Origin: Henricia sp. BOLD:AAB3569
Lineage: Eukaryota > Echinodermata > Asteroidea > Spinulosida > Echinasteridae
Direction: 5' to 3'
DNA: 64,000 nucleotides
Assembly: GCA_037783545.1 (NCBI GenBank)
Contig: JBBELK010000004.1
Location: forward strand, 868,001 to 932,000
The first letter of the stretch is position 1. Every line of letters begins with the position of its first letter. The position numbers and the translations under genes were made by a program. Shown in pieces: positions 6,537-57,983 of this stretch. The notes beneath the pieces are model-generated. The model was not told where the DNA came from. It did not search any database and worked only from the letters and a program-made list of their open reading frames with translations.

Positions 6537-6721
6537 ATGCTAAAAGTGTATGCATTTTTTGGTTTACTTGGACAGCTCGTCTTGACACTCTTCTTCCTGT
6601 TTTCGGTCGTCATCCCAAGAGGTGTTTTGGCCAGTACTGCTGAGCAAACTGATATTCAGATAGTGTTAATGGAAGCTGATAATGATAGCAAGTGTAACGG
6701 GGGCATTAGATGTCCTCCAGG
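6537..6721 (+). CDS. Gene A exon 1: signal peptide and start of Cys-rich module
   Basis: Starts ATG, encodes MLKVYAFFGLLGQLVLTLFF and further hydrophobic residues (a classic signal peptide), then an acidic linker and CNGGIRCPPG. It ends phase 2 at a GTAAGT donor; the split Gly codon completes in exon 2. A possible acceptor (TTTCTCTGCAG) lies about 40 bases upstream, so an untranslated upstream exon is possible. Confidence 0.85.
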
Positions 6722-9700
6722 GTAAGTGCTGTTAAAGGCCCAGTGGATCATTTGCAATGACCCCAAAAAGTAATCGACTAGTTTAAAGGGGAAAAGTTCT
6801 GAAAGTAAAGATTGAATTAAAGAAGCATGACCAGAGTTTCTGGAAAATAGTTTTCGATGTAACTTACCAATATTATCAAGTAACTCCCATACACACCTCC
6901 CATGTCCCAAAAACCCGAAAACATTTGCGATTTCCAGTAAAAAATTGAACAAAACTATCGAGTCGGCTTTCAGTGGATAAACGTTGATACTGGAAAATTA
7001 GTTTACAAATAATCGGTTGATTTTCGACGATATCCTCGGAAATATGCGGCCTAGAAGCGCGGGAGTTTCAGTTTCGTAATCAGAAAAATATAACGGATGT
7101 TATGAAATAAAAATCTCATGACCCATAAGGAAAGTCCCGGGGAGTTATGGGTAAAAAAAAGTGATCTGGTCACACTCCTTTAATAGCAACTACCCAATGA
7201 AAGGTTTCCGCTCAAAATTATATAATTTTACCAGAAAATAATCCGTAAAGATGAAATTATTTAGATCATTTGCAAACGATTTACTTATTTTTGGTTCGCA
7301 TCTACTAATGCATGGGCGCTGTGTACTGCGTGTGCATGTTCTAACGTGATGCATTTTAATGGTCGCGTGCTCGAGCAGATACCCAGTTTTCTCGGTCTTG
7401 GATGCTTGAGGTCGTGATATTTTTTGTCTCGGTCTAGCAGTGGTGTAACTATGGGGGGTGGTGGGATCACAGGGAGGAAATTTTATAGGGTAAGTGCCCC
7501 CTGGACAAATATGTGCACCCCCAGGTGCCCCCTTGGATGTCTCACCCTAGTTCATCGATATATACACACTGGATGAAGTATGCAATAGCAGTTGGCTATA
7601 CGAGAATTAAAGCCACGCGCCGGCAGCCATTGTACCACATGAACAATACTTGACCTAGATGCTCCCCGATCCATGCGATCGCTTGCATGCCACTTAACAC
7701 ATGTAGACCATGACGTAGACTCGTGAAGACAGTATGACCAGTGCAAGTGTATGGTACATGAGCACACACACATCGTCTGCAGACAGCATTTCGGGAAGCC
7801 GCATGGAGCGGCCGTAAAACCGGGAAATTCCTCAACTGAAGCAAAATTAATATACGAACTTGTCAACTTTCGTCAATCCGACTTTAAAAAGGTAAAACAC
7901 AAAGGAATTGAACAAATGTTCTAGGTTGATGTGTCCAATATAAGCAAAAATCCGACATACGCGATCCGACTTAAGTGATGATTTTTATTAGGAATAACAT
8001 ACGAAATCAAACGTTCCAAACGATTTTGTCCGAGATAAGTGAAAATTCGACATAAACGTATCTGACTTATGCAAGGTTTACTGTATTTTGAAATAAGTGT
8101 AACAAAATCTAGGAGCAAGTGTGATCGTACATTTTACTTGTGCGCATTACTATACGCAACGGCAATGACGCTCATGATGTGATGATACACAACTGAACCA
8201 CTTTTGTGCCAAAACAAAATCAGTATTTTGTCTGCAGTACATACAGAAACAATATCTAAAGGCATTGCCAATTTTACTGTTTAATATCGTTGTTCACAGT
8301 AGAATAACAGGGGTGTGAAATTTCAGATTCTTAGCTGATTTCAGCTTTTTTTTAATGTGCCAACATTTAATTTACGTAAGCGGTGATTTTATTTTCTACA
8401 GTATATCTGGCACTTGCCACTTGCTAGTGCACGCCATGTGCAAGCCAGCATTCAGTACAAAATTCCATTCTCGAAGCCATAAAATGCACCAACTGGGGAC
8501 ATTAATTCATCAAGATGTCAGTGCAACTTAAGCGGGCCCCGGATCCCACGCCGTTAGGGCTTTGGGCTTCGCGCTTGCAATTTCAGCTTCACGATTGGAG
8601 TTTCAGATTTGTTTTCTTCAGATTTTTGTTGGGTTCTCCACTCACACCTCTTAGAAACACGCTCATGTTCATCGCCATAAATACTGTAGAAGCTTTCTAT
8701 TCTGTTTTGTTGCAGAACATTTTGTTCCGAAAGTCGCTGCATGGATTGCTCGCCGTGCCCTGATGTTTACAATCACAGGTCTCTTTTAAGAGGTTCTAAC
8801 ACTCTGTGGACCATGGACAAGTGCTATCGAGATGGATGGTGCCCGGACATTTGCAGCTCTATGAGGTTGGACCCTGAGGAACAAGCCGGCATGACGTTGT
8901 GTAATGAGTTGGAAAAAGGTATGTTTAAGTTTGTAACCGTCGGTTTATCATTCTGATCTAGGTTTAGAAAAAGAAATGCAAATTATACTCGAGAAGGCTG
9001 GGAGATATACAGCCTTGGAAAAAATTAATTAACAAAAATAAGTACATAACAATTTATTGAGGAATGTCTTATAGCAGTTTGATGTCATGTAAGCCTCCTG
9101 AGTTAATGACTATAGACAGCCAAAGTGTGACGTGGTTGCCATGGCAATTGGCTCTAAACTATCATGGGCGTCGGAAAAAGTACCACATTGTAGATGACGC
9201 TTTCAGCTTTCATCTATTTTAATGTTTGTGAATTTTTCATGACTGATAGTAACTGTTCGTTTGTTTTTTGTCAACAGCCAATGCGTGTGATAAAACCTGT
9301 AACGACAGAGGTGCCCTAAATAGCACAGTTTGCGTATGCTCCTGCAATGAACCGTGGAATGGCCTTACATGTACAGGTTTGTATAGAATCTCCAGGTTTT
9401 TTATGTGTTTTTCTTAACTTGGGATGAGAGAAAAATTGAAAGGGATTCGAACCCGAGACCTCTGACTCAACAGGCAGACGCTCTACCAGCTGAGCTAAAA
9501 GGCACAGTGCAGTGGTAACCTCCCTCGGGATTTCCATAAGAATCCAATTTTTCATGTTGCATGGGAGCGCAACTTGGCAAACGAACGAATGCAACATCTG
9601 GTATGGTGCCTAATCACCATTGAAATGAAATGACCAAACTTGGGATAAAAGAAAAATCATAAGGGCCTTATCGGGATTTGAACCCGAGACCTCTGACTTA

Positions 9701-12700
9701 CTGGGCAGATGCTCTACCAGCTGAGCTATAAGCTTTGGTACATGTACCTGACTGTAGTTAGTGCAGGCCTGTCGGAATCCTCCAAACAGTGTACGCAGAT
9801 ATTTTATTGAGTGTATACATGTATTCCACTTGTATGATCTTGTCTATAAGTAGACAATTGTATCTGCATGACAGACACACTTTGTCACATGTGGTTTATG
9901 ATCTTTCTCTTCGACCATTTTTTAGATTGTAAATTAGATTGTGGTGACGAGGGAACTCTGTTAGAATCTACATGCAATTGTTTGTGCCGTGGTAGCTGGA
10001 CTGGTCCAAAGTGTACAGGTATGGCATTTAGCAGAATCCTTTTAACTTCAGTTTTGCTCCCCTAAAGGAAGGGACAACACTTGTTTGAAGTTATCGACAA
10101 ATTTAATCAAAAATATTACCGATGTGGTGCCCAGTGCATAAACCTTCATGAGAATCAGAGAATCTTGTTTTGACATCTGCAACCCAATTAAATTTGATGG
10201 TAAACTCTGCAACTACTGCGCCATATTTGGGATGATGACCTTAAATAATGCAACGATTGCATGGATGACGTCAAGATTGATGCCTTGTTTCCCCACTCCC
10301 ATATGCCAAAATCTGTTGTGTCCCGACTCACGCCTTCTCGAGTCCGAGCGCCGAACTGCAAAAGATGGCGAATTACATGAAGCGTACAGAGTTAGGCAAC
10401 CCTTTGCAAGTGTTGTCCCTTCCTTTAAAACCCTTTTTTCATGGTATTGGACTTGCATAAATATGGATTTTCCGTGCTCCAAATCCGTATATTTTCAAGA
10501 ATATTTATCCAGTTACATAAAGCAATGCAGTGATTACACCACCTTTTTGCTTCCACATCCAAATTGGAGATTGCAAATTTCCATTTTTAACAGTTTACTA
10601 ATCATGTACTTTTAAAAGGGCATTCAAGATGACAACGTCCACCCTGGGCTAGAAATAGATGTAATTCATTTCATTTGATCCGGGCCCCCACACAATTTCA
10701 AACAACCTGGGGAGAACCCTGTTTGCATATGAAATAAACCATAAACCATAAATCGTAAACCAAATAAAAATTTATTTGCAGTCTGTGACATCAGCTGCAA
10801 CAATGGAGGCACTCTCGACAGAAAGTCATGTCAGTGTGACTGTGAAAGAGACTGGACAGGCACAACTTGCAGTGGTGAGTAGACCTAAAACAAGCAATCG
10901 TTATTAGTCATCCCACATATCAGTGGAACAAATAACATGGTTTTGAGGATATATAGTATATTATATACCTCATGCGTAGATTCCTGTCATCTGATTGGTT
11001 AAAAGTGGGGGCATTGAATCGGCTAGACCCGGCGCGTATATGCCCACCAGGCAATAGTCTTTGCCATGCCCTGGGCATAGTCATTTAGCGGGTTCCGGAC
11101 GCGCGCATTACATGTGTTAGCATAGCTGTGCACCAACTATGCAGCTGGGCGCTTCACGTAAACATTCATCAGGACGGTAATGGCGGAATCTCGACGTCAT
11201 TTTGTCGTCTGTCGTAGATGATGAAGTCCTTAAGAAAGTAAGAGAAGTGGCCTACAGTGAAAACTGTGTCAGGTGAAATGTGCTACTAAAGTGCCAGGTG
11301 ATTATGCTACAAATGTTTGCTGTAAATATACAACTTTTCCGCCGTAGACCAGCTTCCGAAATCGAAACGCGAAGGACCACTGTCATGACTGTATGATGTC
11401 TCGTTACTTGTAACCAACCAGATGACAAAAATCTACACATTCGGTATATAAAACAAATATTGACTGCTGTTTATTCGGGTCATGGTTAAAGGAGCGTGAC
11501 CAGAGTTTCTGGAAAATAGTTTTCGATGTAACTTACCAATATTATCAAGTAACTCCCATACACACCTCCCATGTCCCAAAAACCCGAAAACATTCGCAAT
11601 TTCCAGTAAAAAATTTAACAAAACTATCGAGTCGGCTTTTAGCGGATAAACGTTGATACTGGAAAATTAGTTTACAAATAATCGGTGGATTTTCGACGAT
11701 ATCCTCGGAAATATGCGGCCTAGAAGCACGGGAGTTTCAGTTTCGTAATCAGAAAAATATAACGGATGTTATGATATAAAAATCTCATGACCCATAAGGT
11801 AAGTCCCGGGGAGTTGTGGGTAAAAAAAAGTGATCTGGTCACACTCCTTTAAGATTATAGGCCCTCTGTGATTTCGAAGCCATGGCTTCGAGATCACCTT
11901 TGGCCTATAATCTTAACCATGCCCCTCATTGCAGTCAATATTTGTATAATATTGGCTCCCCGAGGTATTGGATGCTGGCAAGGTTCACAAGGAGAAAGTC
12001 AGTTGAGGGAACTACAGAGATGCCAAGATTTACAATTTAGCCGTAGTTTGTACAATTGTTTCAGCCGATGACGATCAGTATTGTGACATAATTCTAGAAT
12101 GCATAGCTTCAAATGTGGGGTTTCAATGGGGCTTGGGTGTAATTTTAAAACTTTCGTGTCCAAAGCGGGTGCCCCGTGGCAAATTTACTCTTTTTCAAAT
12201 TGCAATACTGAGAGGAGTTAATACTGACGAGCCACTCGAAATAAACCACATACCATACCATACACTGTACCTCGTATAACGACAGGAAAATGCTAAAAAA
12301 AGGTAAAATTTGTGTGTGTAGCCATTTTTTCATTCGGCTCGTGTGCGCATCGTATACTCACGCAGTGCTGTCACATATATGCTACCACTGTACATGCTAC
12401 ATACATGTACACTTGCCTTCTTCTTAAATAAAGCACATGCTTATTCATAAAATATTCCTGGGTAGCAGAGAAAGAGTTACTTTGTATTAGCGTGTATGTA
12501 GTAAACCGATTCCCGGGCAGCAGGAGGATAGATTACCATGGTTGTGCATTTGTGTTGTGAGTATTTATGTGTTGGCTCGTAATGGTAAATGGGCTAATGA
12601 GAACGGGACTTTTGTTTATGAATATGTATGAGGTATTGTGATCAATTTTGTTTTACTCGTACTTGGTACTCGCACTTGAGTACCATTTTGAGAGTACTTA

Positions 12701-15700
12701 AAATATCAAAGTAATCATACTCGAACACACTGTACTGAACTACATGTATCTCCTGTACTGAACTACCTCCTGTATTGAACTCCAAGTATTTGTACTTGAA
12801 TTGACCTTTATCACGGTGCATCCATCTTTGTCTTGTTCCCCATAGTATGTGTCAGCCACGATCAGTGCGTCTGCGCAACCCCGCGATAGCGTGTGTAATC
12901 TTCCTTTGTTGTTTCAAGAGAATCACTTGTACGGGCTGTGCATTGATTGCGCTACGCGTGTTTCATTGTGATGCACACAATGAACAATTTTAACACGGGG
13001 CAAAACATTTTTCCTGCAAGCCTCGCTTTGTTTACGTTCATTTCGATCTAGGGGAAAGGGAAGATGGCCCACCGTGATAAAGGTCTATTGCCCTGCTGTG
13101 GAACATTCGAACCAGCCATTCGGCACTGGCAATCTTGTTTGTCGAGTAGTAAAGATGTCTGCCTACATACATGTAGGTTCAAGTACCACCCAAGCACAGT
13201 TTGAGGTTTTATGCATGAGTGTTGGGGGAAAGGCACATTATACAGTGCTCACTTTGAGTTGTAAGCTAAGGCAAAAATAATTATCTTTTGTAATTTGGTT
13301 TTATTTTAGAATGTAGAGATAGATCTTGTAACAACGGAGGCATACTTAACACTACTTCCTGTGAGTGCAAATGCAGTGAAGGATGGACTGGTAAATCTTG
13401 CACAGGTTGGTGAAGTTTCTACTTAACATGCAGACGCCCTAAGGGGCCGTCCATAAAGTACGTACGCACGGAGGGGGGGAGGGGGGGTTGTTGACATTGC
13501 GTACACCATGCGTACAGGGGGGAGGGGGGGTCCAAGCCAATGCGTATGTACGCAAACCGAAAATTTCTTTTTAGTAAATCGGGAAAGGATGGACAAGTTG
13601 ACCATGGCTTCAGACCTTATGTACGAAACATATTAGACAGGCTACACATTTTTCTCACACATCTCACATTTTTCTCACTCCTCAAATTAGGTTTTCCCAT
13701 TAAATCTCCAGTTTAATGATGCTTGATGTGTCATTTTAAGTAAACAAAAAAAAATGCAAAAGAAATCTATACATTTTGTCATTTATTTCAGACTTAGGTG
13801 GCGACATGCGAATCGTACTACACGTAGTAGTACATATCACTATACATGTAGTACTGAACCATTTTTACCAATGCTTACCAATGCTGAGGTATATATAAAA
13901 TGCGTATGCGTACAGGGGGTGAGGGGGGGTTGGAGCCACTGCGTACGCCATGCGTACAGGGGGGAGGGGGAGTCTAAAAAGTCGGCATTTCATGCGTACG
14001 TACTTTATGGACGACCCCTAACAGTTGAGCTATGAAGCCAACTGATGGTCTCGGATCGCGGTATTGCCATTGTTCCCAAATCAGTAAGAAACAACTACAA
14101 TCCCTTCACAACGTAAGTAGGACACAGTGTCCCGGGATTATGAGGTGACCAATATGCATATGCCTTTTTGTTTTGAAATTTTGAAATAGCCACATTGACA
14201 TTTTTCTTCTTATTTTGCCAGATGTACAAGTTGAACCAAGAGGGAGCACTTTAAAACCTCCGAACAATGGTAAGAATGAACAGAGTGTTGTAGTGAAATA
14301 ATACATCGCTGGGTGTCTTGTTGCTAGGAGTCTTTGAATTAGGCATTTGTGACCTGCCAAGGCATAATGAGGAATGTCCCCCAAATATTAAAACCACGTA
14401 ATCGGCGCCTGCAGTTAAATTGACGTGAAAAATTTGTCCACAATCGATTTTGGGTTTTTTGCATATTTGCATTGCATAAGTATTCTAGATTCATCCTAAA
14501 GTAGTTGGTTTTGTCAAAATGTTAAATAAACCTTATTTTCGTCTACATCAGCTGTGTAAAACAAGTTTTTGTGACCATAAGAAAAATCCTGCAGCAGATC
14601 CACGCTCATTAAAATACAAAAACATAATGAAAATTCCTGGCGGTGCCCAGATACCACCTGGAATGTCCGTGTTTCGCCTGGAATTTCCATTGTGTTTTTG
14701 TATTTTAATGAGCGTGGATATTCCGCAGATTTCTTCTTATCCTCGCGAAAACTCGACCTAGCCCGCGCGTATTATTCTACCTTTTTGCAGAGCAGGTCAC
14801 ATAATTATTAGAAATAAATTATGAGCAAAATTTCAATAAGTTTATTACAAAATTGAAAAGGTCACACTTGCATTTGAAGATTGCACCAGTTTATTGAATT
14901 GTTCATGTTTTGGGCAATAGACACTTTGCACCGTCGGCCATGACAGGGGGCATGTTTTCATATTTAAAGGGACACACCGGCTTTGTTGGGCTATTTTGGG
15001 CCCAAAATAGACCCATACATGATTCTGAAAGTCTTTCCGAAAACCTGATAAGAAAACACCAAATTTGGCCATTTTTGAGAATTTTTATCTGATTTATCTG
15101 AACCAGATTCTGGTTCCGATAAATCATGTGGTCTTGGAGTTAGTTTTATTTCCAGCCGTAGAAACCAGTGCGAGTTGCTTTTGTCATTCGTGGTTGGTTT
15201 CTGTTCTTGTTTGAAAATAATGTCCTACGAACACTATGTACATACCGTATTTTCCAATTTGTACACAAATCTGCCAACAGATTTCAGAAGAAAGGTTTCT
15301 GGGGGTTGAAACGGACGAGAGAATCTCTCAGATTTTCGTGTCTTTGCTTCGCGACGATAAATAATATCCGAAGAAAAAACAGCAGAGGCCTATTGAGGGC
15401 GCTAAAGACACCAAAAAGTTGCATTCGAGTTGCTTCCTCGAGTCATAGCTGACCTGAGGGATCATGCAAGGTGTGATGAGTCGGGGAAAACAAGTAAAGG
15501 AGGTTAAACACGTGTCGACCCATATCGAATGCCACCTTTATTCACAAACACATGATACATAATACATCGCGACGGCTGGTAAAGCGTATTGCCCAACATT
15601 TGTTTCTTTTGTTAATTTTAAACATATCTAGTTAATTACGTGACATTTTGATAATTTATTTTAGAATGACCATTGAAAAATTATTTTCAAGGATGCAAGA

Positions 15701-21340: not shown

Positions 21341-21342
21341 TG

Positions 21343-22083: not shown

Positions 22084-22155
22084 TGGTCACAAATGGTCAT
22101 GTGTCAAAGTTTCAAATCTGATTTAGATCTTTTACTTTTCTATTTTTATATGTTA

Positions 22156-22236: not shown

Positions 22237-22316
22237 CTTGTACAAAGATGATTTAAAATGTGTTTCGATTTAAAGTGTTTCGATTTTGAATTAAATAAAG
22301 TTAAACTTTCTCTAGC

Positions 22317-34803: not shown

Positions 34804-34848
34804 ATGTACACAGTATGCGGCAGGAATATTTACGTCTTATCTACATAG
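34804..34848 (+). promoter_or_regulatory. Short upstream ORF overlapping the gene B start
   Basis: If the 5' exon begins at the acceptor at 34781, the first ATG is at 34804, out of frame with the receptor ATG at 34815. It encodes 14 codons ending TAG inside the signal peptide. Such an overlapping uORF would damp translation of the main frame. Confidence 0.3.
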
Positions 34849-34966
34849 CATCAGTATTATTGGTGAACTTGCCAGGGTGTACCCAGTCTACTTGCCCAAA
34901 CATACACATCAAATTGTCACCCGATGATGATCAAAGTTGGCAGTGCATACCGAGTTGTGAACGTGG
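34815..34966 (+). CDS. Gene B exon 1: signal peptide and first cysteines
   Basis: MRQEYLRLIYIASVLLVNLP is a typical signal peptide, followed by GCTQSTCPN... and CIPSCERG. Ends phase 2 at GTAAGT, as in gene A exon 1. An in-frame ATG at 34743 would precede it, but a strong acceptor (TTTTTTTACATTTACAG) at 34781 lies between them, so 34815 is preferred. Confidence 0.8.
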
Positions 34967-46900: not shown

Positions 46901-49900
46901 TTTTTTTCCCGCAGTCCTGTAGGACTGGTACATGGTAATATCATGCAAATTTGTCAACATTTTCACGGATCTACAGAGTGTTGGAAGGGGAGGGGGTGTC
47001 CTGGGCGGGTTGTCGAGGGCTGTAAAAGAGAGAAGATGGCTGCACCGTGAGAAAGGTCTATTAACAACCTCAGAGATTTATAGAGGTCTGAATTCAGGAT
47101 GCCTTCTTTAAAATCCGGGAATTTAGGTTGGCAGCTCTGAAGCCTTTGAACACTTTGATATGAGTAACGTTTGTCTGGTCAACCCATAAAGTTAAGATTC
47201 AGGTTCATTGCAAATATAACGTCGCTATAACGAACAAGGCGGTGTCCACAATAAATGTTCGGTATAGCGATCGTTCGTTATAGCGATTTACACATGTATA
47301 CAGCTGCATTCACGACTATCATACCTTTAATCGCTCATGTGATCGTCACACACCAAATGGAAACTCAAGTTTGACTGACAATTTCTCTCTTGTCATTTTC
47401 CTTGAATTTGGTATCGTTGGAAAGCCCTTTTATTCCTCTTTACAATAATGTCATTTATTTTGATTAAGCAATTGGGGGATGTGTAGCACAGCTGAATATG
47501 GGGGCGGGTGTAAAGTGAAATGTCACAAAATGCATTGCTATTATCAAAAAGTGTATTGACACAATCCCATCCCCCAAGCAAAAGGGGAATGCACTGTATG
47601 ACAATAGCAGTGAATTTTATGACATTTCACAATTTGAGGAGTTTCAAAGTAATGTCACTGCCCCCTGTCATGGTTGCCCGTGTAAAGGGTCTATTGCATT
47701 ATATCCAAGGGGTTGGGTGGGCTCGGGAAATAGGGGGTTGGGGGATTGGAGGGGGGGAGGGGGGGTGGAGGAGTTGTAGGTTAAGTGACGAAAAGCAATA
47801 TAATATTGACAAACTTCCAACATCACTTTTTGTTTTATTTTTGTTTTGATACCTTTCTTTTTACATTTTTCCCCTTGCAATGGGAAGTTCATTAACTATT
47901 AACTGCAAACGTGGCATTCATTAATCACTGGCCGATCTGAAAGCTCAGGGTGTCGTAGTACGTAACTGGGAAACGAAATGCTTTGGACCCCTTATTTTGG
48001 GAATTATCCATATGGCAAATTATATTGTATCAAACGCCCATGGGAAAAAATGTGGAGTCAAAAAATGTGATCTGGACACGCTTCTTTAACAAGTTGTGAA
48101 GGTGGAGTACCTGGTTGTGACAATTTTGTCTTTCTTTGGTTTTCTGTAAATAGCAGTGAGTCGGCATATGTGTGGATCAGAGACTTGCCAACAGAATGAA
48201 ACCTGTGTAGAGACAGAAGAGCCTGGTGTGTTTAAATGCCAGTGTCAAAAGGGATTCACTGGAGTAAAATGTGCCGTGACTATTAAACGTGAGTATACGA
48301 ACTGCCCCCAAAAAGACTTGTAAAACCACATGTATGACACTTGGTTTCGCATGTGTACATGTAGTACATTCTTGGACATTTCCGAAATCATTTTTGTTGC
48401 AGTCCTATAGACCATTCCCAGGACTCCTTCCCTGTACACGTCCGCCATTTCTGGGACGCTCTTTCTCCAGTGCATAGACTGTGTCTTTTACGTTGCTGTT
48501 AAATCGAACACTGCGCATCCATGATGCGTTCAACGCGCTCTTCGCACACACAGATTCACACTGAGCCTCCTTTGCGTGTGGTTGCCACGCGCGTCACTTT
48601 GATAAAAAGCGATGTGGAGGAATTTTGAATGAAACGATGCACTGAAAATCACTGAATTTTAAAAACACTTTCCATCCAAGCTAAATCCGTGGAAAGAATT
48701 TGGCCTGAAACAACGCACCGAAAAACACAGAATTAGCTTGGACATATTTTCATAATTCAGTGATTTTCAGTGCATCGTTTCACTTAAAATTCCCTCCACA
48801 TCGCTTTTTCTTAAAGACACGCGCGTCACAATTATGCGCATGCGAAAAGACTCAGTCTGAATTCACCATTACACCAAACGGGCAAGTTGTTCGAAGTGAC
48901 GACACAATGAGCATCATCACATAACGCATGTAGTTCATGCACTGACTGCGCCACAGCTATGGTGGACACACAGGGACGGTTTCCATGGTAATGGGAAAGG
49001 TCTGTAGGACTGGTGTATGTGGTGATATCGTATGTAAGAGGCCGTCCGAAGTTGTTAACATTTTCACGGATATACAGAGCGTTGGTAGGGGGTTGGGGGT
49101 TGAGGGAGGGCTTGGCCTGGGAGGGTTGTCGATGGCTGCGTAAGAATTTACATGCACTGTAAAATGTTGACATTTCACGGTATAGACAAAAAAGGTAAGA
49201 GTTGGGAAGTTGATCAGAATTTGTTTTCTTTAAAATGACTTAACTAGCATTGGAATGTGCAGATTTGATGGAAAAACCCAAAATTTTGAGTGGGAAATAT
49301 TTAAGATTTTGTGAGGAAACACTTGTCTTGAAAAATACGCTCTGTAGAACCGTGAAAATGTTTACAACTTTGGAGGGCCCCTGATACTTCAAAGCAAGCC
49401 TAGCTTTGGTTACGTTTATTTTAATTGGAGAAAAGGAAAGATGGCCGCAGCGTGATAAAGGTCTATAGACTGCCGAAGTGAATACGTCATCTTTTGTTAG
49501 TTGCCTAGGCAATGGCTCTACACTAAAAAGCACTGAACCGTGTCCCTGTGCTTTTGCAATGGTACTTTTTCCGACGGCCGTGATGTTTAGGGCCATTTAC
49601 CATGGCAACCTCAGAGATTTATATATGTTTGAATTTAGGATGCCCTCTTTAAAATCCGGCAATTTAATTTGGCCCGTAAGTAAAAAGCACTTGAAAAGAC
49701 CACAATGTATCGATTATGCAACAACTTGGGTAACCGATGGCTTTCCCTTCTATTCACTGGGAAAATAATGCCTGTCTCCAACCATTGATACGTAAATTAA
49801 AAGAAAGTGTTTTTTTAACTTATACGAGGCACTTTAGTTCAGCAAGGCGTTTGGCGCACCGTGTTCAGCACAAAATAGACCCAAACAATCGGGAGCCAAA

Positions 49901-52900
49901 TGTGGCGTTCGTTATTACCGAATGTTCGTTAATTTGGTGTTTGTTATAGTGACGTTCTACTTATCATTAGGAGACCTATGATATTGCATAATTATGAAGT
50001 GTAGCTGTAATGTCCTCATATTTTCACAGATAACGGTCCCCCTGTATGGGTATATGCTACAATTGTTGCAGTCGTAGTGCTGATAGTGTGTGTTCTGCTA
50101 GGGTGGTACTTGTCCAGAAAATCTGGCATCTCCTTGAAATCACTAGTGCGTCGAACACGGCAAAACGACAAAGACATCACTCTTCTTCGTAAGTATTATT
50201 TGAATTGTGCCACAAGCGATTCTACACATGTGTGCATGTTGTACATGTATGTTGTTTTAAGCGATCACAGCCCCACCCCATTGTCTGTTTTGTTTTCAGA
50301 ATTTGGCATGCATTTAAAAAGTTGTTTATCTCTAGAGAAAATAAAAACGGAATGTCAACACTTTTTCAGCATGAAAAAAAAATGTACCACTCGGTCCAAG
50401 TTTATTTATTTTGATACATTTATTTATTTATTTATTCAACCACATCTAACAGTGAGTAAATTGCCACTTCCAGGATAAATCCACCTGACAAAATTCTACC
50501 TGTCACGTTTTATTGTCCATTTCGCAAAGTGCCCATCTAAAATCACGCATTGCCCGTCCAAAAGACGGGTAGATGGGTCGCTAGATAAAACGCTGCAAAT
50601 GTTTGTGAGTGCAACAACACACATAATTTAATGGAATCTGTCACCGAATGAAATTATTCGTTCTATTGCACAAATTTTAAACAATTAATATTTGTTTTAT
50701 GAAACACCAGAATAAATTCCTATTTCTCTGAACAAATTAGTGTTGTATTTTACGTGGATTGTACCAAATAATTTAACCACACGTGACCGACAATGCACTA
50801 ATCAGATGACAGGGATTTTAGGGGGTTTGATAGAATAGCGTGTGTTTCTGAACAGTGTGTCCATCGAAATTTGTGTGAAGAACCGACACGCATGTTTTTT
50901 CCCCCAACCCCCCTCCATGTGTGCTGGTGTGTAACATTTGTAAATGTTGATTTGATTTTGTTTAAAATGGTGCAGGTTTTACTAAAAAAACGGGTATGTA
51001 CCAAGATTCTCTTTTTGTTGATGTTAAACATGTTAAGGGGCCGCCCAAAGTTGTCAACATTTTCACAGTTTGTAGTATTTTTCAAGACCCCCTACCTCAG
51101 GCTCCACCCCCGAAATACTACTTATTATTACCGGTAAATGTCAACATTTTACGCGGCCCTTGACTCCCCCTCCCCTCTCCCCTTCCAAGAAAATGTTGAC
51201 TTTGGACAGCCCCTAAAATTGCATGAAGTTGTGATGTTGCTAAACTTTTTATTTCTGCGTGTGAAATGTTCTCATATACATGCAGTTAACATCTCTATTT
51301 AAAATGAAATTTGACTATAGTAGTTCTGTGGACACTGCCAGAATATAGCTTTTGCACCGTTGGCCATAACGGGTGGCAGGTTTGCAGATTTAAATGATGT
51401 GACAATAGATGCACAAAGTGCCTACTCGTGCATGACACGTATGTCACCGCCCCCTGTCATGGTTGCCAGTCTAAGGGTCTGTTGCACCATATCCAAGGGG
51501 TTGGCTGGGAGGGGGAAATCGGGCGGGGGTGAGGGATGGGGTTTTGGGGAGGGGGGAGGGGGGAGGGGGGAGGGGGGGAGGGGGGGAGGGGGGAGGAGTT
51601 GTAGGTTAAGCGAGTTACAGCAATGACAAACATCCAACAGCACTTATTGTTTTATTTTTGTTTTATACCTTTTGTTTTACATTTTTTTTCCTTGCAATGG
51701 GAATTTCATTAACTGTTAACTACAAACTTGGCATTCATTAATCACTGGCTGATCTGAAAACAGTTATATCAACTCACCCAAAATCACATGTAAAGGGCTC
51801 CTGATAATAATTTTTCAGTTACATGTACTGCTAAGAAAACGGAGTTAACCTTTTGCGTGTAACTTTGCATAGTGGCTGGTGCCCCGTGTTCTCCACATTC
51901 AAATGGAGGTGCAGTTTAGAAGGTCACTATATGCTATTATTGCTACGTGGTGCACACCATTACCTAGAGTCTGGCTGCTTTGTCATTCTATTCTACGGTG
52001 AACAAAGTATTGACACCTGCCATGTGCACCATGCATATACACCAATCCGGTAACTAAGGTCTCCTTCCCTGTACATCCGCCATAGCTGGGGGCCTTCCAC
52101 TGAATGAACTGTATGTTTTTGCTGTTGCTGAAGCTGCATTTTGTTTACTTCGAACAAGTTGCGCATCTTTGTAGGGTTGAAGGAGGAGTACGCGAAGGAG
52201 GCGCGTCGCGTGCACGCGGAGGGGGGCGCGTTCGTGCATGTAATGGATGAGCGCTTTTCGTTCTAACAGCAACACAAAACGCACAACCCATGCACTGGAC
52301 GCTCCCCAGCTATGGCGGATATACAGGGAAAGAGACCTTGGCTATCGGATTGGTCTATAGCAGCAGAAAATTAGTCTGGTCAAGTAGATAATAAATGTGC
52401 ATGTGAAAGGAAGTGTGCCAGAACAACAGACATTATTTATAGTTGAGGCTAAGACCAAACAAAATAAATGGTGCGTTTACGGTAACAGGCTAAACAAAAT
52501 CCAGGTAGGTAGGTAGGAAAATCATTTTATTTTGTCATTTTTTTTTTACATTTCAGTTCATGCATTTGTGTGTTGTTTTGCAATGTTTGAAACGCACTAT
52601 TAACACTATTAACCATGTTCGTGTACAAGTGTAGAAAATGTTATGTTCGTTGGAAATTATTGCAAATAGTGCTCATTTAAAATTATAAATTGGCAATAAA
52701 AAGTTTGAGGTCGGCAATTTGGCCTCAAAAATTCCAGGTAGGTCGGGTTACCGTAAACACACCATTTATTTTGTTTGGCCTAATCATAGTTAAAATGACT
52801 GCTCCTCCAAAAAAATAATACTTTGTATGAGCATAATGTAGCCACGCCTCGGACTATCTATATAAAGTCAATTTTAGGGCCCAATTTAAAATTAAATACT

Positions 52901-55900
52901 AGTATCTGTTCTCGGTTTAAATGTTTTATGACTTCTGTAAACAATATTTTCGTACGTAAATGTGGAGTATTTCTTCGAAGTTCTTTTTATGTTACATGTG
53001 CTTCTGATGAAGCACTGTCACAATATTCTAAAGCCAATGCACCACTTGTACTATAGTTCATACATGTAACTTCTCAAGTTTTTTATTGTGACTATGAGGA
53101 TGTATTGCTCAGTTTTTTGAAAACCCACGGAATTGATATGTAATGATTTTGCAGTACCACAAACAGTCCAATTTTATAAAAACGGTTTACTAGCTGTAGT
53201 CTGCATCTGTAGTTTTGACCGATGTTTGGCAAATTATTGCTGAGCCTTAATATTTGCTATAAAACAGTATTTTTGGTCTATTAACTACATTATGAACCAA
53301 TTAACTAATTTTTGGGGTACCATGGTCGAGTGGTTTACACATGTTAGGTCGTTGGCTCTCAACGGGGATGATGACTTGATGTTGTGGGTTCGATGCCCGG
53401 ATGTGGTACCTGTGCCCTTGAGCAAGGCACTCAACCACAATTGCTTCGTACATAGCTTAAGTCATGTAATTCAGTGTACTAGTCTCGTGCCCAGACCTGC
53501 TGGGGATGCTCACCCATCGGGTCTGGGGATTTGCAATGAGACCTCATCTCTGATAGGTTGAACGGGATGCCCATTCGTGAGCCGTGGCTGATAGTACGTA
53601 CACTGCTATTGGTCATGCGATCAAATCAGCGTACTGCCTTAACAACAGACGAGCACTCCCTTGCTAGAAGTGACTGTGGGCGCCATATACAGTGCAGCAG
53701 AGCTACTAGACTCCGTCAGTGTGTTAAATGCTGTGCGGTAAATGTTGTGATTGCATTCGACAGAGATTAGGAGGGAATTCTTCATGTTTGACGAGGCATG
53801 ACGTCAAAGATGTACATGATGCTAAATATGAACCTGTAATGTAATCTGGGTGAAGAAAGTACGTGTCATGTTTCTTGTGAAGACCATTTGGTGTGTGTTA
53901 TGGTACTGGTACTGGGGGGTGTGCAGCCTTCCGAGCATGACCCACGGTGCTTATGATAATGAACCAAAGCCTTTGCGGGGGTCCCGCACCGAAATTCGGT
54001 GTGGGCCTCAACCAATCAGCAATGAGCCGTCATCGCAAATCCCCAGACTTGATGGGAGAGCATCCCCAGCAGGTCTGGGTGTGAGACTTCAGCATACGGG
54101 CTGCGAATTGAAGTTCATTAAACTTATTAAAAAGAGAAGAAAAAAATACTAATGTGCTAATTGCACCAAGTGTATAATGCACGTATTTTAATATAGTTAG
54201 TGCTTACTTAAATCTAACATTTGCCATTAGACAGTGTATTCATATTTCCCCAATGCTTGAAATAAACACTTACACTAACCGCCACAAGTGTTGAAGTGCC
54301 ATCTGCAGCTAGAAACGTGATTAGGCGTGCTGCAAGAATTAAGCCACTGTGTGTGGACCTTTTGGTCATGTGTGTATATGCATATGACAACTTAAAATAA
54401 GCCGTGTCTGCATTAGACGTGTTTTTCGGGAGGTTTTACCGAGACTACGACAACATGAAAAATTAATATATATTTTGCTGCTGTCCGCACTTGGACCTTT
54501 TGACACGGGAAATTTTTTACTGAGACCGTGGGAGAGCAGGCGCAGTGTCTCTTCGCAGGTTGACCTTCATGGCCTGAATGTACGCTTCCAGAGTGGTTTT
54601 ACCGACTCGATGTGTCCACATTGGACATTTTGTCTCGGGAAATGTTTCCAGGTCGATTTTCCTGGGCAGCAGTTGGCTGAGAGGAAAACGTCCTATGGGA
54701 AAAGTACCCATCGTCTCGGTAATGTTTTAAAAAAAGTCCGATGCCGACAGGCCTTTAGTATCGGAATGTGGCTGTCATGTTATGACCAACATCATCACGA
54801 GAACATGCATTGTGTATGTCTTGTAGTATAAGACGGTGTGACCTCCACGTCTGGCCAACGATGATACATGTGTTTTATTTGTATCAAGGCCTCTGATTGG
54901 CATTTGCCTTTTTTGTTTTCTAACTAGCTGCAAAACTGATGTACGAGCTTGAAGGGAATACACTGATTCTTAAGGATCTACATAACTGGACCTCATGCAC
55001 CCTTTACACTTGCAAGTGCGTCCCAGGCTTCCCTGTTGAAATCACAGCAGAAATGAGTGATTATCCAGTTTCAAACCTGCTTCCGGGACTCGTGTACAAC
55101 TTTGAGATTCTCCGACGGCCGTCTGATGACGTAGAAGACAATGGGAGTGGTAGTCTTGCTGAGGTTGAAGTTAATATTCCAGGTAATGTATGCAAATTTA
55201 TTATCAGTGTTGGAGTCGTGTACATATATTGGCTGCGTTCGGGCGTGCAGTTCTCGCTACTCTGGAGTAATGCGTGCGCATTGCACTTGGGTCACATTAC
55301 GCGAACGACAAGTCCACGGCCACAGTCTGCAAGCGCGAATGGCCATCAGTCAAGATGGCCGTCTCTTGCCATGACTACACAAAAAACGCCGTTCCACTGC
55401 TCACAAGAAATTGAAGAAAATACAGACCATAAGTCGTGAGAACCTTTGATACCGTTTAAAACAAACCTTAGTGAGTTGTTGTTTCAGTTATCCAGTTGAC
55501 ACGTTTAGCAAATTCAGCAAAAATCCAACCTATATCCCGCCATCTTCGTACAAATCACATGGCACCCGTCAGGAGTAAGACCACACTCCACATTTGTTGG
55601 GGAGTACCAAGAGCATACTCTCACTGACCCAAGTGTCGTTAATCTTGCCGTTCGCGTGCGCAGGAGTATGCTCGTGTTAACACGAGTACACGCCCGCAAG
55701 CAGCCTCAGAGTACATCTTGGCTGCGTTCGGGCGTGCAGTTCTCGTTACTCGGGAGTAATGCGTGCGCATTGCACTCGGGTCACATAACGCGAACGGCAA
55801 ATCCGCAGTCCGCGTGCACGAATGGCAATCGGTGAAGATGGACGTCTCTTGCCATCACTACACAAAAAATGCCGTTTCATTGCTCACAAGAAACTGAGGA

Positions 55901-57983
55901 AATACAGGCCGTAAGTCGTAAGAACCTTTGATGCCGTCTAAAACAAACCTTAGTGAGTTGTTGTTTAATTTATTAAAATTGAGTTGACACGTTGAGCAAA
56001 TTCACACAAAAATCCCACCCATATTCCACCATCTTCGTACAAATCACATGACACTTGACAGGAGTTCGAGCACACTCCCCATTTGTTAGGGAGTAGTGAG
56101 AGCATACTCTCACTGACCCGAGTGTCGTTATTCCTGCCGTTCACGTGCGCAGGAGTATAACTCGTGTTAACACGAGTACACGCCCGAACACAGCCCTTGA
56201 GTACCGGTACACAGGTCAATTTCGTAAAGCTTGTAAGCACATACATTCTGCTTAAGTCTTATGCTCATAAACGCCATTCTCTGTTTCAGCACTTACAATG
56301 TGTACATGTAATACATGTAGTACACCAAACAGAAAATGGATTTTGGTCTAATAACCTACATTGTAACAGTCATATAAAGTTGAGAGCATGAAGTTTCAGA
56401 ATGATTATGAGAAATGAAAATTTCTCAAAAATATGATCATGGGCAGATTGCAATATGCGGTCCAAGACCGGTTTATAGGATTTTCCCGCTTACGCGGCGT
56501 CCGCTAAGACCGGTCTATAATTATAGCCCGCTTGCAATATCGTAGTCTAAAAGTAAGACCAGTCTTAAAATTGGAGCCCGCGGCGAGCAGGCTATAATCG
56601 GTCTATAATTTTGGACACGTAGGGCACTACATATTGTGATTTTTGATGAAAGAAGACGAAGAGTATTGTAAACAGAATGCCCATTGGTGCCCTTTTAGTG
56701 CTATTTGTGAGCTTTCGCGGTCAGTTTCTTTGCAAATACTAAGAAAGCGCACGCGCCATCAAGTGGCTACGTGAGGATGTTTGGCTTGAAATTATGTAAG
56801 TATATAGCTGGCTGCATCACTTTTCGTTAAGGTATGTGTTTTTTTTGGCTGGCGCAGCCGTACTTGGTTTATTGCAATGGGCTAAACCAGCGACTAAGCC
56901 GAGACTGGCTATGTTGATTAGCCAGCTATAAAAGACTGGTCTAAGACAGGTGTCTTAGTTAATTTCATTACAATCTGCCCCTGGACTCGCTCCTTTAAAG
57001 GAGTGTGACCAGATCACTTTTTTTTACCCATAACTCCCCGGGACTTACCTTATGGGTCATGAGATTTTAATATCATAACATCCGTTATATTTTTCTGATT
57101 ACGAAACTGAAACTCCCGCGCTTCTAGGCCGCATATTTCCGAGGATATCGTCGAAAATCCACCGATTATTTGTAAACTAATTTTCCAGTATCAACGTTTA
57201 TCCACTGAAAGCCGACTCGATAGTTTTGTTCAATTTTTTACTGGAAATCGCGAATGTTTTCGGGTTTTTGGGAGATGGGAGGTGTGTATGGGAGTTACTT
57301 GATAATATTGGTAAGTTACATCGAAAACTATTTTCCAGAAACTCTGGTCATGCTCCTTTAAACAACAACTGGTGAATATCAAATTTAGCTGTATGTGTAA
57401 TGCCACGATAGCCAGACTCTCTGAGGTTTTCAATTACAGCATCCACATTGACGTAGACGAGTCTTGACTTCAAGCGTTATGTGCAAATTTTGAGGCGTTA
57501 TTCAAAGCTGTGATTTATTTCACTTATCTCCTTGCAGAATCTCATGAACAACAGAATGTCTGCACAGGAAAACTTGAAGAAATTCAGAATACTCCTTTTT
57601 GCCGCAGTCTTAATAAGGTACTCGACTCCAATTCTGACCTCCGAAAGTATATTTCCAACTACTACCGGTACCATCTTAAAGACTTCCAGAGAGACTGCAT
57701 TGAGAGCTCAAACGGTAGGTGCGCGGATCATCTATGCGACATACTCGGGACTAAGGACAAGCTAGACACCAGCATTGAGCCCTTGCTGAGTTCCATTGTG
57801 CGTGACAAGCCTGAGGGAGCACAGGAGTTTGTGCGTATATTGACGGAATACCATCCAACGTGCAGGGTGTGTCGCTGCATTCGCCACAGGCTTCATGGTG
57901 GTACATGTACAGGATCGCAGATGGCCCAGCAGCAGTACATAGAAGTATCTACTGATGACTCCTCAAACAGTACTCAAATATAG
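34815..57983 (+). CDS. Gene B: EGF-repeat transmembrane receptor with death-fold-like tail (10 coding exons)
   Basis: Join of 34815-34966, 35388-35596, 36563-36629, 37212-37339, 44691-44810, 46293-46424, 48157-48288, 50030-50188, 54928-55182 and 57538-57983; 1800 nt, 599 aa plus TAG. Predicted order: signal peptide (1 to about 25), Cys-rich module (about 27-120), a Delta/tenascin-type EGF pair split by an intron (121-185), three canonical EGF repeats (186-313; the last two a recent duplication), TM helix (about 319-341), a basic juxtamembrane SRK...RRTRQ, a cytoplasmic FN3-like exon (367-451) and a death-fold-like exon (452-599) with a C-terminal CRVC pair and polar tail. It shares architecture, exon phases and key motifs with gene A about 14 kb upstream, so the two are tandem paralogues, but the EGF sections have diverged in type. 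Introns 4 (7.3 kb) and 8 (4.7 kb) are swollen by mobile elements. The start at 34815 follows a strong acceptor at 34781, which suggests a 5' UTR exon upstream. Confidence 0.85.
35155..35240 (+). repeat. Minisatellite, GAGTGTGGGTTACCGTGGCC unit
   Basis: Three to four tandem units of about 22 bp in gene B intron 1, the third with an extra TAATA. Confidence 0.85.
35388..35596 (+). CDS. Gene B exon 2: N-terminal Cys-rich module
   Basis: Acceptor TTTTTTTGGTTCAG, donor GTACG. Junction reads CERGMYCQDRRCIPCGDCPD, matching CPPGTFCSESRCMDCSPCPD of gene A, then CIYGGSCPKSCGNG and CRCFDV before a Pro-rich PPTP end. Exit phase 1, as in gene A. Confidence 0.85.
35675..35826. mobile_element. MITE, ATTTCGTGGGGCA type, copy 2 (gene B intron 2)
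   Basis: GCCGCCATTTCGTGGGGCAC / TGCCCCACGAAATGTCGGC. Interior (ACTTAAACCGTTCAACAATG) matches copy 1 at 25211 in reverse complement. Confidence 0.82.
36563..36629 (+). CDS. Gene B exon 3: first half of an EGF-like repeat
   Basis: Acceptor CACCCCCACAG, donor GTAAGT. Reads VPTEATCREGCNHGNCEIPG then KCK. The EGF is interrupted after the fourth Cys (phase 2) and continues in exon 4. Confidence 0.8.
36750..37075. mobile_element. Inverted-repeat element in gene B intron 3
   Basis: GTCTGGAGACAA/CCTGGTCTCCAGAC and TGTTTGTTACCATTG.TAT / ATAGGAATGGTAACAAAC pair around a centre with CTTGTCAACTCGTCAAGTAA / TTACTTCACAAGTTGACAAG. Confidence 0.65.
37212..37339 (+). CDS. Gene B exon 4: second half of the split EGF plus a whole EGF repeat
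   Basis: Reads NCEDGWKGELCDQCSPDCVH then GHCNSTSGQC, LCLPGWGGTVCDQ. The run of short CxHGxC and CxCxxGWxGxxC motifs is the tenascin/Delta type of EGF tandem. Exit phase 1. Confidence 0.88.
37532..37943. mobile_element. Palindromic MITE of the AACACAGACCATATTTTC family, complete
   Basis: Arms of about 190 bp, ends CACGGTAAAGGGGGCATTTT / AAATGCCCCTTTTACTGTG. The centre ACCGGGACGGCC...GTCCGTCCCGGT gives a strong stem-loop. Gene B intron 4. Confidence 0.85.
38919..38961. repeat. (ACATGT)n microsatellite
   Basis: ACATGTACATGTACATGTAC-type simple repeat. Similar TGTACAGCACATTA units are at 39715-39780. Confidence 0.9.
39050..39692. mobile_element. Element with TCGTCGGTCGCACCACGAAG ends
   Basis: About 32-bp inverted ends, 643 bp apart. 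The CGAAGTGGCGTATC motif recurs inside in two further small palindromes (39403-39440, 39470-39505). Gene B intron 4. Confidence 0.8.
40680..40850. mobile_element. Fragment of a SINE/LINE 3' end
   Basis: GACCTGCAATGGACTGGCAT and CCAGCTAGTTGCTGGGGGTA resemble the conserved body of invertebrate SINE/LINE tails. No polyA or tRNA head. Confidence 0.4.
40853..41290. mobile_element. MITE with AGAGAGGTTTCGCA ends
   Basis: AGAGAGGTTTCGCACCGTCA and TGCGAAACCTCTCT invert, with GAGCCAAT/ATTGGCTC outside. Internal GTAACCGTATTCG-type repeats. Confidence 0.75.
41509..42075. mobile_element. MITE with AATAGACCGATCCAGTAAGC ends
   Basis: Perfect inverted ends of about 30 bp, through CTCCGCCCATTT, 567 bp apart. 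Confidence 0.85.
42595..43142. mobile_element. TTAA-flanked element with AGGGCCC end, copy 2 (gene B intron 4)
   Basis: TTAA at 42591-42594 and 43143-43146. Matches 18464-19185 in reverse complement but lacks its nested MITE. Confidence 0.78.
43149..43284. mobile_element. Palindromic MITE, about 135 bp
   Basis: GGCTCGTCAGCAATGCGCGC / GCGCGCGTATTGCTGACTAGCC, with CCAAATTCGTGCCATGAAAT / ATTTCGTGGCACGAATTTGG inside. A stray end is near 5697. Confidence 0.8.
43868..44542. mobile_element. MITE with AAGGCCCGTCTACA ends, split by a SINE
   Basis: GGCCAACATTTGTTGGCCAA and its complement are at both ends. AACATGTTGG motifs repeat inside. The SINE at 44092-44424 sits in the middle. Confidence 0.8.
44092..44424 (+). 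mobile_element. tRNA-derived SINE, full length, nested in a MITE
   Basis: Head has box A (TGGTCTAGTGGGTATGAAGC) and box B (GGGGGTTCAAGCCCC). The body contains CCCTGGGCAAGGCACTTAAT; the tail is (ATT)n. AGTTG on both sides may be a target duplication. Confidence 0.82.
44691..44810 (+). CDS. Gene B exon 5: canonical EGF-like repeat
   Basis: A 120-base phase 1-1 exon after AATCTTTGCAG. Reads DISFCANNQPCKNGGTCVNT then GGYNCQCSEDFEGTNCET. CKNGGTCVN and GYNCxC are hallmarks of Notch-type EGF. The acidic-Asn pattern expected for calcium binding is incomplete. Confidence 0.93.
44855..45225 (-). mobile_element. tRNA-derived SINE, minus strand
   Basis: Read on the minus strand: GGTACCATGGCCGAGTGGTT (box A) at 45225, GCAGGTTCGACACCC (box B), CCCTTGAGCAAGGCACTTGG, then a body ending near 44880 with GAGGAATCCTTGGTTTCAGT. 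In gene B intron 5. Confidence 0.75.
46083..46920 (+). repeat. Segmental duplication unit 1 (contains gene B exon 6)
   Basis: Starts AGCTCGGGGTGTCGTACGTA and continues through the intron end, exon 6 and the start of intron 6. Matches 47942-48410. The intron part after the exon is interrupted by about 400 unmatched bases. Confidence 0.85.
46293..46424 (+). CDS. Gene B exon 6: EGF-like repeat, duplicated copy 1
   Basis: A 132-base phase 1-1 exon. Reads VNQHMCGSESCQQNETCVET, GVFKCQCRKGFTGVKC, AVSIK. Tandem AGs (TAGCAG) mean it could start three bases earlier and add one Ala. About 94% identical to exon 7. Confidence 0.88.
47652..47941. repeat. Dispersed repeat, copy 1, abutting duplication unit 2
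   Basis: CCCCCTGTCATGGTTGCC, ATATCCAAGGGGTTGG, a G-rich tract, GAGTTGTAGGTTAAG and CATTCATTAATCACTGGC match 51441-51759. Its end coincides with the left breakpoint of the exon 7 duplication. Confidence 0.8.
47942..48410 (+). repeat. Segmental duplication unit 2 (contains gene B exon 7)
   Basis: Copy of 46083 onward, with about seven substitutions and one 3-base indel over the 210 bases of upstream intron. Confidence 0.85.
48157..48288 (+). CDS. Gene B exon 7: EGF-like repeat, duplicated copy 2
   Basis: The same 132-base exon as exon 6, 1864 bases downstream, reading VSRHMCGSETCQQNETCVET, GVFKCQCQKGFTGVKC, AVTIK. Open, with intact splice sites (TAAATAGCAG / GTGAGT). Together with exon 6 it would give consecutive near-identical EGFs; alternative use is equally in frame. 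Confidence 0.82.
49037..49381. mobile_element. MITE with GGCCGTCCGAAGTTGTTAAC ends
   Basis: GAAGTTGTTAACATTTTCAC / CGTGAAAATGTTTACAACTT inverted; the interior contains the GTTGGGAAGTTGATCAGAAT repeat also seen at 28530. A shorter relative is at 51033-51214. Confidence 0.65.
50030..50188 (+). CDS. Gene B exon 8: transmembrane helix and basic juxtamembrane segment
   Basis: A 159-base phase 1-1 exon after TTTTCACAG. PVWVYATIVAVVVLIVCVLL gives one TM helix, followed by GWYLSRKSG and SLVRRTRQND. Equivalent to gene A exon 9. Confidence 0.92.
51033..51214. mobile_element. MITE with AGGGGCCGCCCAAAGTTGTC ends
   Basis: Ends pair with GACTTTGGACAGCCCCT. Inner arms GTCAACATTTTC / GAAAATGTTGAC. 182 bp, gene B intron 8. 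Confidence 0.78.
51441..51759. repeat. Dispersed repeat, copy 2
   Basis: Second copy of the 47652-47941 repeat, with an expanded GGGGGGAGGGG tract. Confidence 0.8.
52056..52339. mobile_element. MITE with AAGGTCTCCTTCCCTGTACA ends
   Basis: Inverted ends including CCGCCATAGCTGGG / CCCAGCTATGGCGG, 284 bp. A related solitary end is near 48430. GC-rich GCGTCGCGTGCACGCGG interior. Confidence 0.75.
53316..53465 (+). mobile_element. tRNA-derived SINE, 5' part
   Basis: GGTACCATGGTCGAGTGGTT (box A), GTGGGTTCGATGCCC (box B), GCCCTTGAGCAAGGCACTCA; then truncated. Same family as 58616 and 45225. Confidence 0.75.
53480..54088. mobile_element. MITE with AGTCTCGTGCCCAGACCTGC ends, copy 2
   Basis: Long inverted ends (GCTGGGGATGCTC / GAGCATCCCCAGC). 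Interior matches 5079-5536. Immediately follows the SINE at 53316. Confidence 0.8.
54928..55182 (+). CDS. Gene B exon 9: cytoplasmic FN3-like region
   Basis: A 255-base phase 1-1 exon after TTTTCTAACTAG, donor GTAATG. Contains NWTSCTLYTCKCVPGF, then YPVSNLLPGLVYNFEILRR and an acidic loop before LAEVEVNIP. The NLLPGLVYNFEI strand pattern resembles the F-G region of FN3 domains and matches gene A exon 10 in position and phase. Confidence 0.87.
55231..55705. mobile_element. 475-bp MITE, tandem copy 1 (gene B intron 9)
   Basis: Starts GGCTGCGTTCGGGCGTGCAG; the right end CACGCCCGCAAGCAGCC is degraded. Interior has CTCGTGTTAACACGAG and CAAGATGGCCGTCTCTTGCC. Confidence 0.8.
55720..56195. mobile_element. 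476-bp MITE, tandem copy 2 (gene B intron 9)
   Basis: Ends GGCTGCGTTCGGGCGTG / CACGCCCGAACACAGCC. Same interior as copy 1, 14 bases downstream of it and in the same orientation. Confidence 0.83.
56441..56980. mobile_element. Element with GGGCAGATTG ends
   Basis: GGGCAGATTGCAATATG and CATTACAATCTGCCC invert, about 540 bp. Repeated AGACCGGTCTATAA-type motifs and AGCCAGCTATA inside. Confidence 0.65.
56999..57357 (-). mobile_element. 359-bp TTAA-flanked MITE, copy 3 (gene B intron 9)
   Basis: TTAA at 56995-56998 and 57358-57361. Reverse complement of copies 1 and 2, nearly identical in sequence and equal in length. Confidence 0.88.
57538..57983 (+). CDS. Gene B exon 10: death-fold-like C-terminal domain
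   Basis: Terminal exon after TCTCCTTGCAG, ending TAG. Helical segments include FCRSLNKVLD, LRKYISNYYRYHLKDFQRDC, HLCDILGTKD and SIEPLLSSIVRDKPEGAQEF, then CRVCRCIRHRLHGG and a polar Ser/Thr/Gln tail. CRSL, DKPE and the C-x2-C pair align with gene A exon 11. The death-fold assignment is inferred from this pattern. Confidence 0.85.

Follow-up and report, generated by a model that had tools for sequence, protein, structure and literature searches.

A probable tandem pair of receptors joining a cysteine-rich head to EGF-like repeats beside a TNF receptor gene in Henricia sp.

Gene models, paralogy, and copy number

The window analyzed here is a stretch of 64,000 nucleotides from Henricia sp. BOLD:AAB3569, C4:868001-932000 of an assembly of 740.7 Mb in 2104 contigs (GCA_037783545.1). 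Models of two plus-strand genes, A and B, were rebuilt from splice signals and reading frame. In these models, gene A has 9 exons (6537-20646) encoding 538 amino acids and gene B has 10 exons (34815-57983) encoding 601 amino acids, with GT/AG boundaries and in-frame joins at all junctions, in agreement with an earlier note on this DNA that described two plus-strand genes with junctions in phase. The lengths given in that note (567 and 599 amino acids) were not recovered, and a pattern scan found no additional EGF exon in A that would account for the 29 extra residues of its A model. The modeled exons, in window coordinates and with the evidence for each in parentheses, are as follows.

6537..6721, plus strand: A exon 1, predicted signal peptide and start of the head, ending at CPPG in phase 2 (splice model, hydropathy)
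8716..8918, plus strand: A exon 2, TNFR-like Cys-rich head, TFCSESRCMDCSPC... (splice model, BLASTP, Pfam, alignments)
9278..9376, plus strand: A exon 3, EGF-like 1 of the C-x3-C..CxCxC..W.G..C type (below Pfam cut-off)
9926..10018, plus strand: A exon 4, EGF-like 2 (below Pfam cut-off)
10782..10874, plus strand: A exon 5, EGF-like 3 (below Pfam cut-off)
13310..13405, plus strand: A exon 6, EGF-like 4 (below Pfam cut-off)
17464..17634, plus strand: A exon 7, transmembrane helix and juxtamembrane part (splice model, hydropathy)
17971..18264, plus strand: A exon 8, cytoplasmic, called FN3-like, without Pfam support (splice model)
20264..20646, plus strand: A exon 9, terminal with stop, predicted helical (splice model, BLASTP, structure model)
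34815..34966, plus strand: B exon 1, signal peptide called by eye and start of the head, ending at CERG in phase 2 (splice model)
35388..35596, plus strand: B exon 2, Cys-rich head, MYCQDRRCIPCGDC... (splice model, BLASTP, genome search)
36563..36629, plus strand: B exon 3, first part of an EGF-like pair (splice model, Pfam)
37212..37339, plus strand: B exon 4, remainder of EGF-like 1 plus EGF-like 2, Delta/Jagged-type (PF21700 5.5e-8)
44691..44810, plus strand: B exon 5, EGF-like 3 (splice model, Pfam)
46290..46424, plus strand: B exon 6, EGF-like 4 (splice model)
48154..48288, plus strand: B exon 7, EGF-like 5, a copy of exon 6 (splice model)
50030..50188, plus strand: B exon 8, transmembrane helix and juxtamembrane part (splice model, hydropathy)
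54928..55182, plus strand: B exon 9, cytoplasmic, called FN3-like, without Pfam support (splice model)
57538..57983, plus strand: B exon 10, terminal with stop, predicted helical (splice model, BLASTP, structure model)

Both proteins have the same order of parts: leader, Cys-rich head, EGF-like exons, one transmembrane helix, and two cytoplasmic exons, the penultimate of 85 to 98 amino acids and the terminal of 127 to 148. Intron phases are 2,1,1,1,1,1,1,1 in A and 2,1,2,1,1,1,1,1,1 in B, and the matching exon phases described previously are largely borne out, except for the extra phase 2 of B, which lies inside an EGF pair. The head is split in both genes by a phase-2 intron at C-x-x-G, at an identical codon and phase in CPPG^TFC (A) and CERG^MYC (B). 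As the earlier note had proposed, each protein has a single strong transmembrane helix, with KD 19-residue maxima of 3.23 in A (position 266) and 3.01 in B (position 321). The signal peptide it assigned to both is well founded in A, where leader hydropathy reaches 2.38 and is clearly hydrophobic, while the leader of B (IYIASVLLVNL) is shorter, stays below the listing threshold of 1.6, and was called by eye. Judged from sequence, A and B are probably a tandem pair of single-pass type I cell surface receptors with an unusual domain order.

Corresponding parts of A and B were compared using global alignments with 1000 shuffles each. Because no shuffle was as good as the real alignment for either the heads (BLASTP E 7e-9; z 9.3) or the tails (BLASTP E 9e-5; z 6.2), both are homologous, which upholds the common Cys-rich N-terminal module noted before; the tail, read at the sequence level, is conserved between A and B. 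The EGF sections were also separated from all 1000 shuffles (z 6.8), and for the transmembrane exons 11/1000 shuffles were as good (z 2.8).

Copy number was assessed with single-protein queries against the whole genome. The A head matched only A and B (B at E 0.31), the B head matched only B and A (A at E 0.14), the B tail matched only B and two weak stop-containing sequences at E ~0.7, each FN3-like exon matched only itself, and the A tail matched only itself, missing the B tail. No third copy was found by these protein searches of the genome, in which very diverged copies lie out of reach, as the failure of the A tail to find B indicates. When all parts of A and B were compared by tblastn to 264 kb (100 kb around the window) at E<=1, no further copy was detected, and the sole match outside the two genes was 25 residues of the B FN3-like exon (29048-29122; E 0.19). 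The reading of the pair as an expanding family, put forward in the earlier note, was dropped, with heads confined to A and B, and tails and FN3-like exons confined to themselves, barring the two matches at E ~0.7.

Several other features were recorded in the window and the assembly. Between A and B, a near-perfect palindrome of 1.8 kb is present in two side-by-side copies (29353-31159 and 31512-33320) with 92-93% similarity; their self-complementarity is 95.5 and 95.9%, resembling that of a fold-back mobile element. A repeat of ~370 bp in the introns of A and B, present in three copies with 96.7-98.1% identity (6817-7183, 11486-11852, and 56995-57364, one of them inverted), is a young interspersed element. 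Of the many remaining open frames in the window, eight were compared to Pfam, with no match at E<=0.1. Elsewhere, contig C955 carries mitochondrial COI three times at an exact spacing of 16221 bp, probably because the assembly contains the mitochondrial genome as a concatemer. This COI reads in the echinoderm mitochondrial code, and just upstream on the minus strand are tRNAs for Leu, Gly, Tyr, Leu, and Asn, a reversed cluster that we take to be the asteroid mitochondrial gene order.

The cysteine-rich head, the EGF array, and the adjacent TNF receptor gene

Searched alone against Pfam at E<=10, the A head matched three families, DUF1839 (0.27), TNFR_c6 (0.49), and stn_TNFRSF12A (1.6), with a TNFR_c6 score of 11.3 bits that is far below the Pfam cut-off of 29.4. 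At the same threshold, the B head alone matched no family and the whole A and B proteins matched no TNFR family, and NCBIfam returned nothing at E<=0.1 for the head or the tail of either gene. The remark in the earlier note that it knew of no named family with this order holds to the extent that neither a Pfam model over cut-off nor an NCBIfam model names the head or tail. When a profile of the A and B heads was compared to PDB, TNFRSF21 (E 1.4) was outranked by six other rows (E 0.09-0.88), which were zinc-finger and ferredoxin chains and one chromatin-adaptor chain, so that scores of this kind are driven by cysteines.

The weak Pfam matches of the A head prompted a genome-wide TNFR_c6 search, which produced 15 matches at E<=1, none of them in the window exons of A or B. 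Seven passed the cut-off, falling in about six places across 740 Mb, and two of these seven were at C4:934358-934621 on the minus strand, starting 2.4 kb past the window end. The gene at this place, gene C, encodes 303 amino acids on the minus strand (L012:5294-865, or 64865-69294 relative to the window) and is oriented toward B, its stop codon lying 6.9 kb from that of B. Its exons were read from the sequence.

L012:5294-5184, minus strand: C signal exon
L012:2639-2339, minus strand: C CRD1-2 exon
L012:1537-1343, minus strand: C CRD3 exon
L012:1169-865, minus strand: C transmembrane and tail exon

Gene C has three Cys-rich repeats (CRDs), a transmembrane helix, and a 39-residue cytoplasmic tail. 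It matched PF00020 at 1.2e-15 over 3 stretches, along with 23 sequences in PDB (E<=0.01), of which 21 are named TNFR superfamily members, and its sequence identifies it as a genuine member of the TNF receptor superfamily. The chance of six places coming within 10 kb of a 51-kb stretch is ~6e-4, a value for which the 10-kb distance was picked afterwards, and adjacency to gene C, taken alone, does not prove that A and B descend from a TNFR. All three genes have an intron in the same Gly codon of C-x-x-G, in phase 2 in A and B and in phase 1 in C. With one extra Cys omitted, the heads of A and B have the skeleton C-x10-C-x2-C-x2-C-x21/x19-C-x5-C, which is the six-Cys CRD pattern with a longer loop than the corresponding x15 of C CRD3 or x9 of C CRD1-2; by this spacing, they fit a stretched TNFR repeat.

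Each head was aligned to 13 comparison modules, consisting of the 3 CRDs of gene C, 7 human CRDs, and, as controls, 2 EGF stretches (A and B) and 1 ferredoxin. The A head scored 65 against C CRD3 (CPPGTFCS..CMDCSPCPDVY aligned to CPTGHFYS..CLPCSPCEDQY), a score reached by 0/1000 shuffles in both full and Cys-fixed versions and by 11/30000 Cys-fixed shuffles in a larger run. Its next best module was the ferredoxin control at 45 (13/1000 full and 60/1000 Cys-fixed shuffles as good). For the B head, the ferredoxin control was the best module at 52 (5/1000 full, 28/1000 Cys-fixed), with scores of 47 for C CRD3 (10/1000 full, 27/1000 Cys-fixed, and 887/30000 Cys-fixed in the larger run) and 46 for EDAR (8/1000 full, 10/1000 Cys-fixed). 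Both heads were also used to scan 7102 open segments of at least 25 amino acids in 264 kb, 518 of them containing five or more Cys. Apart from its own two exons and B (81), the A head scored best with the CRD exons of gene C, at 53 and 50, and the segment after these had 48; for the B head, the C CRD3 exon was sixth, tied, and the other C exon was absent from the best 12 matches listed. A tblastn search of the 264 kb with composition adjustment gave no match to gene C at E<=1. With the B signal weak, the TNFR case rests on A, and B is joined to it through its homology to A. Based on these alignments, the A head may be a diverged TNF receptor repeat, and the contrast with TNF receptors drawn in the earlier note is undercut by this weak likeness and by the genuine TNFR gene next door.

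The EGF array provides the only domains above Pfam cut-offs in either protein, and all of these are in B (PF21700 5.5e-8 and PF00008 7.6e-8). The repeats of A follow a C-x3-C...CxCxC...W-x-G-x2-C pattern and match teneurin EGF models below Pfam cut-offs, so that of the EGF repeats previously reported in both proteins, those of B stand above threshold and those of A have sub-threshold matches only. A recent tandem duplication (46080-46473 and 47941-48360, 89.8% identity over 420 columns) copied one EGF exon of B, and the array of B may vary between individuals.

It is possible, if somewhat doubtful, that A and B are instead an EGF-type adhesion or scavenger pair of the Delta/Jagged, PEAR1/MEGF, or teneurin kind, in which the head resembles a TNFR repeat by convergence and the protein serves as a receptor for cell-cell or matrix contact. 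EGF arrays are common to these families and to A and B, the repeats of B are the domains that Pfam recognizes with confidence, and the B head has no TNFR match and prefers the Cys-rich control to every TNFR repeat. However, no Pfam model of such families covers the head, apart from a sub-cut-off teneurin EGF model extending from the EGF part into the head of B, and the A head favors the adjacent TNFR gene over all other non-paralogous segments in 264 kb, by a small margin. A and B also differ from these families in their head and cytoplasmic part, and Pfam matches of the whole proteins at E<=10 included no DSL, EMI, or teneurin core. A cytoplasmic part of two exons with a conserved helical tail is not known to be characteristic of the Delta/Jagged, PEAR1/MEGF, or teneurin families, which counts against this alternative.

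The cytoplasmic exons

The penultimate exon had been described as an FN3-like cytoplasmic exon common to both genes. In Pfam searches, neither exon matched fn3; the A exon had only a Clospo_01618-like match at 0.12 and the B exon had nothing, and the FN3 identity of this exon was dropped. Comparison of the two exons gave z 2.2, with 29/1000 shuffles as good, and their sequences suggest that these middle cytoplasmic exons are mainly positional equivalents.

The terminal exon is probably helical, as modeled. AlphaFold with the two-row alignment of the A and B tails produced poor models (mean pLDDT 59.5 for the B tail and 49.2 for the A tail), both of which are, at this low pLDDT, all-helical with six or more helices. 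Such an arrangement would suit the unlikely alternative that A and B are true death receptors, with a tail that is a very diverged death domain recruiting FADD-like adaptors and caspases. An alignment by eye sets the A tail against the Fas death domain over its helices 2-6, and the genome is rich in death domains, including FADD-like and MyD88-like copies named by sequence reading. Against this alternative, Pfam searches with the tails at E<=10, in which HMMER filters drop most very weak matches, returned no Death, CARD, DED, or PYD domain, and contig C4 carries none of the genome's 90 Death matches at E<=0.1, so that neither tail is among them. A PDB sequence search with one tail had no match, the same search with the other tail had seven, none better than E 0.2 (Rns regulators, ceruloplasmin), and the two-row tail profile had three PDB matches, to Smad4 MH1 and a ribosomal protein, at E 0.52-0.56. 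Foldseek with the B tail model gave 55 matches at E<=10 and 0 at E<=0.001, with no death fold in the best 50 of 55.

Direct comparison with death-fold profiles gave scores within the range of shuffles. Using hhalign with human-only sets, 6/60 column shuffles were as good for death domains, 2/60 for CARD (over 8 columns only), and 32/60 for DED. A larger, lineage-enriched death-domain profile was made from the best 20 of the 90 genome Death matches and nine human domains, and in hhalign 28/200 shuffles were as good as the tails. In hmmsearch, with 500 shuffles per tail and counts taken among those that scored, shuffles were as good in 23/466 cases for the A tail and 65/376 for the B tail with the human set, and in 90/471 and 165/382 cases, respectively, with the larger set. 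In neither program do the real tails stand apart from shuffles, and the death-fold-like tail of the earlier note is unproven, given no profile match at E<=10 and poor structure models. A scan for TRAF motifs found one PPEE in A, where 0.40 is expected by shuffling, and none in B or C.

Many of the death domains found across the genome are closely alike, and several are clustered on contigs C291, C219, and C348. This set may belong to expanded innate-immune genes.

Origin and possible function of the receptor pair

We put the odds at about even (0.5) that A and B are derivatives of the TNF receptor superfamily that arose by domain shuffling, with a single TNFR-like CRD kept and the later CRDs replaced by EGF repeats; the TNFR ancestry of the head itself is likewise a toss-up on the present alignments, supported but not proven. 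Far less probable is that the models are wrong joins or decayed genes, in which separate genes or pseudogenes have been read together: they were built solely from splice signals and frame, include repeat-bearing introns of up to 7.4 kb, and in A are 29 residues off the earlier model, but every join is in frame with GT/AG throughout, the two genes have equal exon order and largely equal phases, and there are no internal stops in proteins whose head and tail are conserved.

If A and B were derived from TNF receptors, the ancestral step would have kept one N-terminal Cys-rich repeat and exchanged the subsequent repeats for EGF exons, upstream of a cytoplasmic part in which a linker exon diverges fast and a helical tail is conserved. 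From the combination of a leader, a disulfide-rich ectodomain, one transmembrane helix, and a conserved C-terminal cytoplasmic module, we infer a receptor that binds a ligand and signals when its tails cluster. TNFR ancestry, if right, would suggest a trimeric TNF-like ligand, and the head could bind such a ligand, or one that is surface bound, either by itself or together with the EGF stalk. Receptor clustering would then draw the helical tails together, and the gathered tails could recruit an adaptor, either death-fold-like or TRAF-like.

Members of the TNF receptor superfamily, such as gene C, Fn14/TNFRSF12A, and other single-CRD receptors, are like A and B in the six-Cys N-terminal pattern and single-pass type I topology. 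A and B differ from them by a longer loop after the fourth Cys, extra cysteines, EGF repeats in place of further CRDs, a Pfam score below cut-off, and a tail with no proven death domain or TRAF motif. Shuffled immune receptors have been described in other invertebrates, including a TNFR-caspase protein of amphioxus (PMC2575513) and EGF-TIR proteins of oyster (PMC4346834). Like A and B, these newly combine TNFR or EGF modules outside the cell with signaling modules inside it, but as described in excerpts of those papers, neither combines a TNFR-like head, an EGF array, a transmembrane helix, and a helical tail. Titles and abstract openings of open-licence papers contained no account of the A and B architecture. 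More tentatively, A and B could represent an undescribed echinoderm receptor class, in which a new helical signaling fold in the cytoplasm was combined with a TNFR repeat and an EGF array within a TNFR cluster, beside a short-tailed TNFR that is a possible partner or decoy.

If the TNFR ancestry is true, TNF-type receptors can swap their stacked CRDs for EGF repeats while the cytoplasmic tail is kept, and the stretch of about 63 kb that contains A, B, and the genuine TNFR would offer a defined locus for studying the diversification of invertebrate TNF signaling. The tail, kept in two otherwise fast-diverging paralogues and matching no profile, is a candidate new signaling domain.
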